Positions 55,397 to 59,937 of a stretch of DNA of 64,000 bases are shown piece by piece. How positions within the stretch are numbered: the first letter of the stretch is position 1; each line of letters starts with the position of its first letter. The stretch is from Anaerolineae bacterium. Lineage in GTDB: Bacteria > Chloroflexota > Anaerolineae > Aggregatilineales > Ch27. The DNA lies in assembly GCA_013178165.1 (NCBI GenBank), contig JABLXG010000004.1, forward strand, positions 310,001-374,000. Reading direction: 5' to 3'. A program made the position numbers and the translations under genes. Below the pieces are notes generated by a model that saw only the letters and a list, made by a program, of their open reading frames with translations, was not told the origin of the DNA and searched no databases.

Positions 55397-56758
55397 ATGT
55401 CCCGCAAAATGCTACTTATTATGCTGGCCCTCGTTCTGGCGCTGCCTGGCTTTTCTGCAGGAGCGCAGGGGGGATGCGAGGAAGTCGTGACCATCCGCGT
55501 GGATGACTGGTCATCCGGTGACCGCGTGGAATACATGCACCAGGTGGTGGACGCTTTTGAGGAAGAGTATCCCTGCATCAAGGTTGAACTGGTGCCCAAC
55601 ATCGGCGATGACCAGAACACGCGCCGCCTGACCTGGCTGGCCACCGGCGACGCCCCCGATCTGATGGCCATCCCGCCGGAATGGGGAGCGCTGTATGTGC
55701 TTTCCTCGGAGGACGGCGCGTACATCGATCTGCTGCCCTACATTGAGGGCGAGAACGGCCTGAATGTGGAAGAGGAGTTCTTCCCTGCAGTCTATGAGCA
55801 GGGCTTCTATGGCGACAAGTTGCTGGGCCTGCCCAAGGACTACAGCATCAGCGCCTTCTACATCAACACCGCCCTGTTCGATGCAGCGGGCATTCCTTAC
55901 CCGCAGGCAGGCTGGACATGGGATGACGTGCTGGACATCGCGCTGGAGCTGACCCTGGATGCCAACGGCAACAACGCTGCCAGCCCGGACTTTGACCCGA
56001 ACAACGTTGTCCAGTGGGGCATTGACATCGTCAATGATGGCTGGTGGCGCGCTTTCCAGAGCTATATGCTGGCCTGGGGCACCCACACGATCAGTGAGGA
56101 CGGCACCACGACCGTTGGCTACCTGAACAGCGAGGCCGCGGTTGATGCGTTGTCGTTCTACCGCGATCTGGTTTTTGTCCATCATGTCGCTCCTTCAGGC
56201 ACGGTCATTGGCGCCACTGAGGGCGGACGGCTGCAGATGTTCCAGGACGGCAAGATCGCCATTGGTCTGACCTTCCATGGGCCGTGGTGGCAGGATGTGC
56301 TCAATGCAACACCCAATCTGGAATGGGCGGTTGTGCCGCTGCCAGCCGGTCCAGCGGGACGCGGCAGCGCTGTGATGTGGCTGGGCTGGGGTATCACCGC
56401 CCAGTCGGAACATCCGGATGAGGCCTGGGAAGTTCTTAAGTGGCTGACGACGGAGCCGGGCCAGCGGGTGTTTGCTCTCAAGGCTCTTAGCGCCAGTCCT
56501 GCCGTTTCTGAAGAGATGCAGCGGATCGATGACCCGTACTGGGGAGTCTTCATCGAGGAAGCTCAGCATCTCAAGCCACTCGATGATCAGCGCAATGCTT
56601 TCTATGGCCCCTGCGTAGCGACCCCGGCGGGCGATCTGATGAAGCGCCTGCTGGCCGATGGTGGCGATGCGCTGGATATTCAGGCTGAGCTGGATGCCCT
56701 GGCGGCAGCTGCGGATGCCTGCCTGATTGAGTCACTGGAAGAGGCCGGCCAGTCGTAA
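55397..56758 (+). CDS. sugar ABC transporter substrate-binding protein
   Basis: A 453-residue extracytoplasmic solute-binding protein of family 1 (MalE/UgpB type). ATG 55397 starts the signal peptide (about 1-23, ending SAGAQG); no lipobox Cys at the junction. The mature part opens VVTIRVDDWSSGDRVEYMHQVVDAFEEEYPCIKVELV, and further on has WLATGDAPDLMAI, AGWTWDDVLDIALEL and WEVLKWLTTEPGQRVF, typical of the group. Sugar type cannot be read off. A hairpin follows the stop, and the two permease genes come next. Confidence 0.9.
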   Translation: MSRKMLLIMLALVLALPGFSAGAQGGCEEVVTIRVDDWSSGDRVEYMHQVVDAFEEEYPCIKVELVPNIGDDQNTRRLTWLATGDAPDLMAIPPEWGALYVLSSEDGAYIDLLPYIEGENGLNVEEEFFPAVYEQGFYGDKLLGLPKDYSISAFYINTALFDAAGIPYPQAGWTWDDVLDIALELTLDANGNNAASPDFDPNNVVQWGIDIVNDGWWRAFQSYMLAWGTHTISEDGTTTVGYLNSEAAVDALSFYRDLVFVHHVAPSGTVIGATEGGRLQMFQDGKIAIGLTFHGPWWQDVLNATPNLEWAVVPLPAGPAGRGSAVMWLGWGITAQSEHPDEAWEVLKWLTTEPGQRVFALKALSASPAVSEEMQRIDDPYWGVFIEEAQHLKPLDDQRNAFYGPCVATPAGDLMKRLLADGGDALDIQAELDALAAAADACLIESLEEAGQS

Positions 56759-56810: not shown

Positions 56811-56846
56811 TTGTTCTGGCGTGGGTTGTGGCCCTGGGAGGGGATG

Positions 56847-57767
56847 ATGGTCAGTCAACGGCGCAAGCGTTTTGATCTGGGATCGCCGATGGCCCGGCGG
56901 GAAGCGCTGACCTTCTACATCCTGGTATTGCCCTGGTTGTTGGGCTTCGTGATTTTCCTGGCTTATCCGATGCTACGCTCACTGTATCTGTCATTTACCA
57001 GCTACGACCTGCTCTCGCCGCCTGTCTGGACCGGCATACGCAATCTGGAGCGACTGGTCAACGATCCTGATTTCTGGCAGTCGCTGCGCGTCACCTTCAC
57101 TTATGCCTTGTTCAGTGTACCAACCGGGAACCTGATCGCGCTGGGTGTGGCCATGCTACTGTCCCAGAATCTGCGCGCGATCAACATCTGGCGGACGATC
57201 TTCTTCGTGCCCTCGGTGCTGAGCAGCATTGCGGTTGCTATTCTGTGGTTGTATGTTTTTCGGCCCGATGGCGGCATCCTCAACAGTTTCCTAGCATTCT
57301 TCGGGATTCAAGGCCCCAACTGGTTGCTGAGCGAGCAATGGGCGCTCCCGGCGCTGATCATCATGAGCTGGTGGACTATCGGTGGTCAGGTGGTGATCTA
57401 CCTGGCTGGCCTGAAGGGCATTCCAAGGGTGCTTTATGAAGCGGTAGAAATTGACGGCGGCGGGGCATGGGCGCGTTTCCGTTATGTGACGCTGCCGATG
57501 CTCAGCCCAACGGTGTTCTTCAATGTGGTGCTGGCCATCATCGGCGCGTTGCAGGTCTTTGATGTGGGCTGGGTGATGACGCAGGGTGGCCCCAATAAAG
57601 CAACCTACTTCTACATGATCAATCTCTACGAGCGCGCTTTCAAGTTCATCCAGATGGGCTATGCTTCCGCGCTGGCATGGGTGCTGTTCATCATCATCAT
57701 GGGAATTACATTGCTGGTGGTGCGCTCGTCAGCAATCTGGGTGTTCTACGAAACGGAGGTGAAGTAG
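56847..57767 (+). CDS. sugar ABC transporter permease (MalF-type)
   Basis: A 306-residue permease. ATG 56847 is favoured over the adjacent ATG 56844 by spacing to GGAGG. Six helices are visible. The coupling motif lies in GIPRVLYEAVEIDGGGAWARFRYVTLPMLSP (E-A-A-like loop, about 195-225), as expected for MalF/UgpA partners. Its stop is one base before the next start, so the two permeases are made together. Confidence 0.92.
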   Translation: MVSQRRKRFDLGSPMARREALTFYILVLPWLLGFVIFLAYPMLRSLYLSFTSYDLLSPPVWTGIRNLERLVNDPDFWQSLRVTFTYALFSVPTGNLIALGVAMLLSQNLRAINIWRTIFFVPSVLSSIAVAILWLYVFRPDGGILNSFLAFFGIQGPNWLLSEQWALPALIIMSWWTIGGQVVIYLAGLKGIPRVLYEAVEIDGGGAWARFRYVTLPMLSPTVFFNVVLAIIGALQVFDVGWVMTQGGPNKATYFYMINLYERAFKFIQMGYASALAWVLFIIIMGITLLVVRSSAIWVFYETEVK

Positions 57768-57768
57768 G

Positions 57769-59721
57769 ATGGGGGGCTACACGTGGGCTACTCGCCTGCT
57801 TCCGGTAAGTGTGCGGCACCTGGCGCGCCAGATCGCCTGGCGGCTGAATCCGCGTCACCTGGTCAGCTATCTCCTGCTGACGCTTGGCTCACTTTTCATG
57901 GTTGTGCCTCTGCTGTGGATGATTACGGCCAGCTTCAAACCAGCGTGGCAGATCTTTGCCAACCCGATTATCTGGATACCTCAGCACTGGGAGGAGGTTC
58001 GCGCCGGGACCACCAACCGGATGCTGCCATTGTGGACGGTTGAAGTCGAAGGTGGAACGCGGAAGGTCATCCAGGTGGGGGTGCGCCGTTACACGACGGT
58101 CATTGACGCATCGAAACTGCACGGTCTGCAGGAAGTCCCTGCGGCCCAGTTGAGCGAAGCTGCTACTGCGCCGCTGAGCAACGGGATTACAGCCAACATT
58201 CGCCAGTGGACGACTGATGGGGAAGTGCGGGATGTTGTGGCGGTGGCGCGTGGTAGTGGCGAGAGCATGATGGTGGTTGAGGTGGATGATCTGGTGCCAG
58301 CGGTGACGCGCTTGCCGCTGGACGAAGTCAACGCCGGCCGCCGGGCGACCATTACCGTGGAGGGTGTGGACTTCCGTGGGCGCGAGGTGACCCTGGAGGA
58401 CGGCACCACGCTGCAACTTATCCCGATTGGGCCAGAGTCGGAGTTGAGTGTGGTGGCGGATCCGGAGGTCGCGAAAGATGCGATTCTGGTGCCCGCGGAA
58501 GCGCTGCAAAGCGCCGGTTACGCCGACGTTGGCGCGACAGAAATTGCGCTCTCCCGGCTGAGGGATGATCCCACCGATTATGTGGTGATCGTCAGCGAGC
58601 AATGGCAGCCGGTTATCAATGAGGAGGAGCTGGATGCCTATGCTTTCATTGCTGAGCGCGACCAACTGGGCGAGCGCACGCTGGAGCCAGTGAACGGTGT
58701 GATCATGCAGGTTGCACCGTACAGCGGCGAAGATGGTACCAGTGGGCGCGTTGTGATCCTGGTCAGCGGGACAGCCCGCAGCCTGGTGATACCGGTGGAG
58801 CGAGCGACCACGCTTCGCCTGGCCCAGGCTGGCGGACTGACTACCGCCCGTGGCGATACCTACGGACGTATCCCTTACCGTGTTCAGGATGGCTTTGAAG
58901 AGGGAGAGGAGATTTCATCAGTAGCACTGGTAGGCGACCCTCGTCAGATGTCGCTGGTGGTGCCCCGGGCATCGATCGCTGAGGCATTTGATGCCCCCCC
59001 GGAAAAGATGCAGCGCACCATGTATCCCAGTCTGCGTCTGAAGGCCTATGAGGAGGTTCTGGAGACCAAGATTGGTGAGACGTACTTCGCCAACTTCTTC
59101 CTCAACTCATTCATCCTGGTAGTGTTGAATGTCGCCGGTCATGTGCTTTCGTGCGTGGTTGTGGCCTATGCCTTTGCGCGGCTTCGTGCGCCGGGCAAGA
59201 ACATCCTGTTCTTGGTGTTGCTGGGCACGATGATGCTGCCATTCCCGGTAACCCTGATCCCGGTCTATGAGATTTTCCGCTGGCTGGGGATGATTGACTC
59301 GTGGTGGCCGCTGTTTGTCCGTAGTTTCTTTGGCAATGCCTTCCTGATCTTCATGCTGCGCCAGTTCTTCACGACGATCCCGCGCGAACTGGAAGAGGCA
59401 GCGGTCATTGATGGGGCGAGTGTGGCTCAGGTTATCCTGCGCGTGGTGGTGCCGCTGAGCAAGCCGGCGATCGCAACGGTCGTGATCTTCACCTTCTGGT
59501 GGACCTGGAACAGCTTCCTGGAGCCGTTTATCTTCCTCAGCACGCCGAGTCTATTTCCGGTCTCGGTGGGCCTTAACTTCTTTAAGGACGAGTACGGGGC
59601 GGTTTACTATGACCGGCTGATTGCGGCCTCAGTGCTGAGTATGACACCGATGCTGGTGATCTTCTTCCTGGCGCAGCGTTATTTCATTGAGGGTATCCAG
59701 CTTACTGGGTTGAAGGGGTAA
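57769..59721 (+). CDS. sugar ABC transporter permease (MalG-type) with a ~350-residue insertion
   Basis: A 650-residue protein; MalG-type permeases normally have about 280. Helix 1 (about 32-54) and SFKPAWQIFANP are standard. The usual sequence then stops near residue 75 and resumes near 435 at YFANFFLNSFILVVLNVAGH, with five helices and the coupling loop E-L-E-E-A-A-V-I-D-G-A-S (about 541-552). The extra block is soluble, beta-rich and charged, with repeated phrases such as ITVEGVDFRGREVTLEDG and RVVILVSGTARSLVIPVERATTL. It falls in the first outer loop, so it should be extracytoplasmic. No frame shift marks its edges. The operon has no ATPase gene. Confidence 0.88.
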   Translation: MGGYTWATRLLPVSVRHLARQIAWRLNPRHLVSYLLLTLGSLFMVVPLLWMITASFKPAWQIFANPIIWIPQHWEEVRAGTTNRMLPLWTVEVEGGTRKVIQVGVRRYTTVIDASKLHGLQEVPAAQLSEAATAPLSNGITANIRQWTTDGEVRDVVAVARGSGESMMVVEVDDLVPAVTRLPLDEVNAGRRATITVEGVDFRGREVTLEDGTTLQLIPIGPESELSVVADPEVAKDAILVPAEALQSAGYADVGATEIALSRLRDDPTDYVVIVSEQWQPVINEEELDAYAFIAERDQLGERTLEPVNGVIMQVAPYSGEDGTSGRVVILVSGTARSLVIPVERATTLRLAQAGGLTTARGDTYGRIPYRVQDGFEEGEEISSVALVGDPRQMSLVVPRASIAEAFDAPPEKMQRTMYPSLRLKAYEEVLETKIGETYFANFFLNSFILVVLNVAGHVLSCVVVAYAFARLRAPGKNILFLVLLGTMMLPFPVTLIPVYEIFRWLGMIDSWWPLFVRSFFGNAFLIFMLRQFFTTIPRELEEAAVIDGASVAQVILRVVVPLSKPAIATVVIFTFWWTWNSFLEPFIFLSTPSLFPVSVGLNFFKDEYGAVYYDRLIAASVLSMTPMLVIFFLAQRYFIEGIQLTGLKG

Positions 59722-59858: not shown

Positions 59859-59864
59859 GCTCTG

Positions 59865-59937
59865 TGCCCCCAAGGAGATTCGAACTCCTGTCTTAGCCTT
59901 GAAAGGGCCACGTCCTGGGCCTCTAGACGATGGGGGC
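59865..59937 (-). tRNA. tRNA-Glu (anticodon UUC)
   Basis: A 73-base cloverleaf: acceptor GCCCCCA/TGGGGGC with discriminator A, a D arm containing CTAGAGGCCCAGGAC, anticodon loop CTTTCAA with UUC, and T arm AGGAGTTCGAATCTCCT. It closely resembles bacterial tRNA-Glu. CCA is not encoded. Confidence 0.95.

Follow-up and report, generated by a model that had tools for sequence, protein, structure and literature searches.

What does a sugar importer do with some 355 additional residues lodged between the first two membrane helices of one of its permeases? The question is raised by a 650-aa protein encoded in a 64,000-nucleotide stretch of DNA (hereafter the window), which serves as the second of two permease subunits in an oligosaccharide ABC importer of the CUT1 type from a Chloroflexota (Aggregatilineales-like Anaerolineae) genome (Table 1). 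A preliminary description of this stretch had recognized a MalG-type fold that is broken after helix 1 and then resumes, and this is borne out by helix 1 itself, by domain models and by structural superposition across the gap. PF00528 (BPD_transp_1) covers residues 465–639 only (Pfam, E 8e-12), the UgpE and MalG models cover the protein from residue ~437 (1.9e-32 and 4e-26, both below the equivalog cut-offs), and in a superposition with E. coli MalG, the model aligns both before and after the insert (3puv_G; Z 13.3, 238 residues aligned, model residues 37–647). Together, the EAA sequence, the hydropathy peaks and the MalG superposition give six helices with the N-terminus inside.

The gene shares its operon with a substrate-binding protein and a second permease, an arrangement kept in orthologues. 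The partner permease, whose start ATG was picked by reading, is normal as the preliminary description had it, with ~307 aa and ordinary PF00528/UgpA matches; the binding protein, too, has a usual size. No ATPase frame was found within 54.5–60 kb of the window, which is not disqualifying, as it is common for CUT1 systems to draw on a shared ATPase. A tRNA-Glu (TTC) gene (59864–59937, minus strand) follows shortly after the operon. Where importers of this genome have no insert, 28 of 28 sugar-binding proteins examined carry AxA-type signal peptides without a lipobox, a difference from many other Chloroflexota (G000 genome-wide; L192–L223; window 55397–55468).

Table 1 Features of the importer operon and of the enlarged permease. 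Coordinates are window positions; residue numbers refer to the 650-aa permease.
Feature	Coordinates	Strand	Basis
Substrate-binding protein (SBP_bac_1)	55397..56758	+	PF01547 E 8.7e-31; AxA-type signal peptide, without lipobox
Partner permease, MalF/UgpA type, ~307 aa, ordinary size	56844..57767	+	PF00528 E 4.6e-13; UgpA model E 1.2e-30
MalG-type permease with insert, 650 aa, single open frame	57769..59721	+	
Transmembrane helix 1, residues 31–49	57859..57915	+	Hydropathy
Whole insert, ~355 residues, ~76–430, outer loop P1 (predicted)	57994..59058	+	28-orthologue alignment; pLDDT 91 folded alone
Module 1, residues ~84–131	58018..58161	+	Module matching one- and two-module permeases
Module 2, residues ~132–190	58162..58338	+	Self-comparison offset ~56
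Module 3, residues ~191–249	58339..58515	+	Self-comparison offset ~116
Module 4, residues ~250–302, with conserved W279-x-P281	58516..58674	+	Self-comparison offset ~173; conservation
Module 5, residues ~303–360	58675..58848	+	Self-comparison offset ~227
Module 6, residues ~361–420	58849..59028	+	Weak alone (score 20, offset ~285); placed by phase and secondary structure
Permease core, helices 2–6, residues 440–650	59086..59718	+	PF00528 and MalG matches
EAA loop (cytoplasmic ATPase contact), residues ~541–566	59389..59466	+	EEAAVIDGA...PLSKP read directly

The insert is predicted to lie on the outer face of the membrane. Hydropathy places three helices between it and the EAA loop, and since the EAA loop contacts the ATPase inside the cell, this count puts the insert outside, in loop P1. 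The assignment rests on homology and helix count; the first full-length model, in which the helices were poor (pLDDT ~55, 17 rows), was not used to place the insert with respect to the membrane. Folded alone, the block is predicted to form one rigid, well-folded outer domain (mean pLDDT 91, pTM 0.73), in agreement with its earlier description as soluble and beta-rich, and the boundaries given there agree with residues ~76–430 (57994–59058). Disorder and a cytoplasmic location, the two outcomes that the same description had set against its reading, are both ruled out by prediction. In composition, the insert is acidic and cysteine-free.

Although initially taken as a single domain, the insert consists of six tandem beta modules of ~57 residues. 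When a profile built from 28 insert sequences was compared to itself, off-diagonal matches appeared at offsets of ~56, 116, 173, and 227 residues, with scores of 74, 73, 62, and 43 (E 2e-9 to 6e-5), while 40 column-shuffled controls reached a maximum of 26. No known domain was recovered above cut-off in Pfam or NCBIfam, nor did a Foldseek search of the insert alone against the PDB return a match at E 1e-3 or better. The best Foldseek rows were beta-trefoil toxin domains, at a probability near 0.1, and were taken as chance.

Twenty-seven further orthologues carry an insert at the same place, so the insert is neither a frameshift nor a chimera. Its length is 350–371 aa in orthologues, with the exception of one contig-truncated copy (344). 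Across the order, the insert profile was present in 28 of 154 genomes from several families, as a single copy in each and without exception within a permease frame; the 16 insert-bearing relatives drawn from the genome collection are all Anaerolineae-type Chloroflexota, and in a class-wide sample of 396 genomes, only the genome under study had the insert. This distribution is patchy, since one genome of the same genus lacks the insert. Compared to the window protein, orthologues are 39–60% identical in the insert vs. 65–84% in the core, i.e. the insert evolves faster than the permease core.

We read the whole as a Chloroflexota CUT1 MalG-type permease in which loop P1 has been enlarged by six modules, most likely as a docking platform for the binding protein, and assign this reading a probability of about 0.5. 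The binding protein of the maltose importer, MalE, is reported to touch both MalF, at loop P2, and MalG, at loop P1 (Daus et al. 2007, as cited in PMC3150292). Because the insert sits in MalG loop P1, i.e. at a binding-protein contact reported through that citation, an enlarged docking platform is its best explanation, and of the three functions previously proposed (built-in substrate receptor, scaffold for the binding protein, or cell-wall contact), the scaffold is for the same reason the best supported, ahead of the other two. By analogy, a large rigid domain at loop P1 would lie at the landing site of the binding protein. The enlarged platform would hold this soluble protein in position above the translocation pathway, as MalF loop P2 (and MalG loop P1) does in the E. 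coli maltose importer. Divergence of the insert tracks that of the permease core (r 0.93), and co-divergence between the insert and the binding protein gave no specific signal (partial r 0.24 vs. 0.33 for the core).

A doubtful alternative is that the six modules form a built-in carbohydrate-binding domain, which would bind a polymer or oligosaccharide substrate and pass it on. The outer location of the insert is compatible with such a role, repeated small beta barrels can act as binding modules, and the GH2, GH65, and other glycoside-hydrolase-like genes in relatives' operons point to oligosaccharide substrates. However, a dedicated binding protein is conserved beside the permease, no carbohydrate-binding family was matched in Pfam or NCBIfam, and the fold comparison likewise gave no carbohydrate-binding domain, although this is not proof of absence.

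Beyond the importer genes, six-module operons of relatives run on into DUF2961 and GH2 genes or into a GH65 gene (L003 7892–11653; L005 7980–10310), which suggests oligosaccharide substrates for these systems; the window operon contains no DUF2961, GH2, or GH65 gene. Elsewhere, frames of ~770 aa without a family match above cut-off lie directly 3′ of six-module permeases (L015 7927–10245; L058 7746–10046; L059 7770–10112).

The insert had been presented as an otherwise isolated case, but many other permeases hold what is apparently the same module, in fewer copies, in the same loop. Within the genome under study, two paralogues have an insert of ~60–70 residues at this site. Across 100 Chloroflexota permeases, the spacing between helix 1 and the core fell into four classes of 31–45, 95–109, 156–163, and 381–402 residues, with one permease at 127; as this sample was drawn with insert-bearing queries, the class sizes do not represent frequencies. 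The lengths of loop P1 are thus quantised, at no addition, +~64, +~122, or +~350 residues, which corresponds to 0, 1, 2, or 6 modules. The single permease at 127 (L088 1186–2361) holds one module and some 25 further residues, which may be part of a second. One permease of the 95–109 class (L028) has an insert of another, helical kind and was excluded from the module set. It adjoins a 652-aa MalF-type partner with several extra helices (L028, G000 C39, 465–2423 and 2389–3546). Permeases with 3–5 modules were not seen among the matches listed for 154 order and 199 class genomes, nor in the 100-permease ladder.

Short modules share the pattern G...plY.V..dG..r.lAlv.....g.fvDP.nP, and when 62 units from one- and two-module permeases were combined in a profile, it matched module 1 of the long insert at a score of 30 (E 1e-4; maximum of 21 in 100 shuffles). 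The next matches of this profile are in phase, at modules 5, 2, and 3, and at noise level. Similarly, a profile of helix 1 plus module 1 matches one-module permeases through the module at E 2e-19, part of this score being supplied by the helix. The L027-type one-module family alone did not separate from its controls when compared to the long insert (score 20, shuffles 22), kinship being seen only with the wider module set. At the sequence level, a kinship of module 1 with the one- and two-module inserts is therefore well supported. Individually, modules 2–6 scored at noise against one-module permeases in sequence-to-profile comparisons, and we infer their kinship with the one-module inserts mainly through the internal repeats.

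The long insert is best read as the outcome of loop growth, in which modules of a short ancestor were multiplied, since the module is apparently found single or paired at the same site in other Chloroflexota importers. In a tree of the permease core with the insert left out, built by a quick method and with long branches flagged, six-module permeases formed one group (support 97) and two-module permeases another (99), while one-module forms were scattered over several places; judging from this tree, the six-module form appears to have arisen once. An unlikely alternative to growth from a short ancestor is independent acquisition, in which the six modules would have no kinship with the short inserts and would have come as a complete block from another protein, set into a permissive loop. 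Such an acquisition would account for the lack of one-by-one matches between modules 2–6 and the short inserts, for the absence of 3–5 module intermediates among the matches listed, and for the third, unrelated-looking insert in the same loop of L028. Against it, site and module length are shared between long and short inserts, the match between module 1 and the short modules is in register, and a search with the insert profile across order and class genomes and a plasmid collection found no stand-alone copy of the six-module block outside permeases. The preliminary description had called for a search for the block as an independent domain; the profile matched inside permease frames only, and the plasmid collection held no relative of the insert.

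Two further readings of the function concern the cell envelope. The first, which we consider rather improbable, is an anchor or spacer, with the domain touching the cell wall, S-layer, or other membrane proteins and thereby placing the importer; the location and rigidity of the insert and its acidic, cysteine-free composition would suit this role, but no known wall-binding family was matched in Pfam or NCBIfam, and of ~35 MalG-type permeases in this genome, a single one carries the long insert. The second, a tether that would hold the unlipidated binding protein close to the membrane and so stand in for a lipid anchor, is highly improbable and was dropped. No lipobox is present in any of the 18 examined binding proteins from six-module operons, but the same is true of 28 of 28 from insert-free importers of the genome under study; in other Chloroflexota, importers with one or two modules mostly have lipidated binding proteins, and lipobox absence thus follows lineage rather than the insert. 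For these comparisons, the signal peptide of the window binding protein was read directly and set beside those of 18 other six-module operons. The insert is not generally needed, since every other importer of this genome whose binding protein likewise lacks a lipid anchor does without it.

Returning to the docking platform, a more specific version can be proposed, tentatively, as one possibility. In Chloroflexota importers, multiplication of a single beta module of ~60 residues in loop P1 (0, 1, 2, or 6 copies) may produce a variable docking domain on the outside, with the six-copy form folding into a closed assembly of interlocked small barrels in which the first and last modules touch, and this new accessory domain might tune the engagement of the binding protein. 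The best structural neighbours of the insert are hybrid or double Tudor domains, which are interlocked small beta barrels; these are eukaryotic chromatin readers and no kinship is claimed. The likeness is weak (ARID4B 7dm4, Z 4.8, 94 residues aligned, rmsd 2.8; JMJD2A 2gfa, Z 3.2, 93 aligned; identity 8%), and at Z 4.8, modules 1 and 6 of the insert match together. A closed assembly would fit this joint match in the predicted model, which is not evidence enough for it.

Among known systems, MalF loop P2 is, to our knowledge, essentially the one established case of an outer domain in a permease receiving the binding protein. Like the insert, E. coli MalF P2 is a large folded outer domain of a maltose-type permease, and it touches the binding protein; however, it belongs to the MalF subunit, lies between helices 3 and 4, and is unrepeated at ~180 residues, whereas the insert lies between helices 1 and 2 of the MalG-type subunit. 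With E. coli and SugB-type MalG, the permease shares its fold and loop P1, which there is the binding-protein contact reported in the cited source, but that loop is short compared to the 355 extra residues here. The copy-number ladder at MalG P1 (0, 1, 2, 6) offers a natural series for testing what such domains do.

The closest precedent in architecture comes from Thermotogales, in which MalG1 and MalG2 have a hydrophilic region of ~500 residues between helices 1 and 2, whose function was unknown in 2008 (Noll et al. 2008, PMC2246101). Like the 650-aa permease, these are MalG-type proteins with a very large hydrophilic helix 1–2 region without similarity to known proteins, and a large insert at this position in MalG is an architecture already known from them. 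Compared by published description only, the Thermotogales insert differs in length (about 500 residues vs. 355), in having no reported repeats, and in belonging to another phylum. As far as our searches go, novelty lies in the construction from six modules, in the ladder of copy numbers, and in the Chloroflexota family, and the module ladder offers a route towards explaining the large Thermotogales MalG insert, the function of which has been listed as unknown since 2008.
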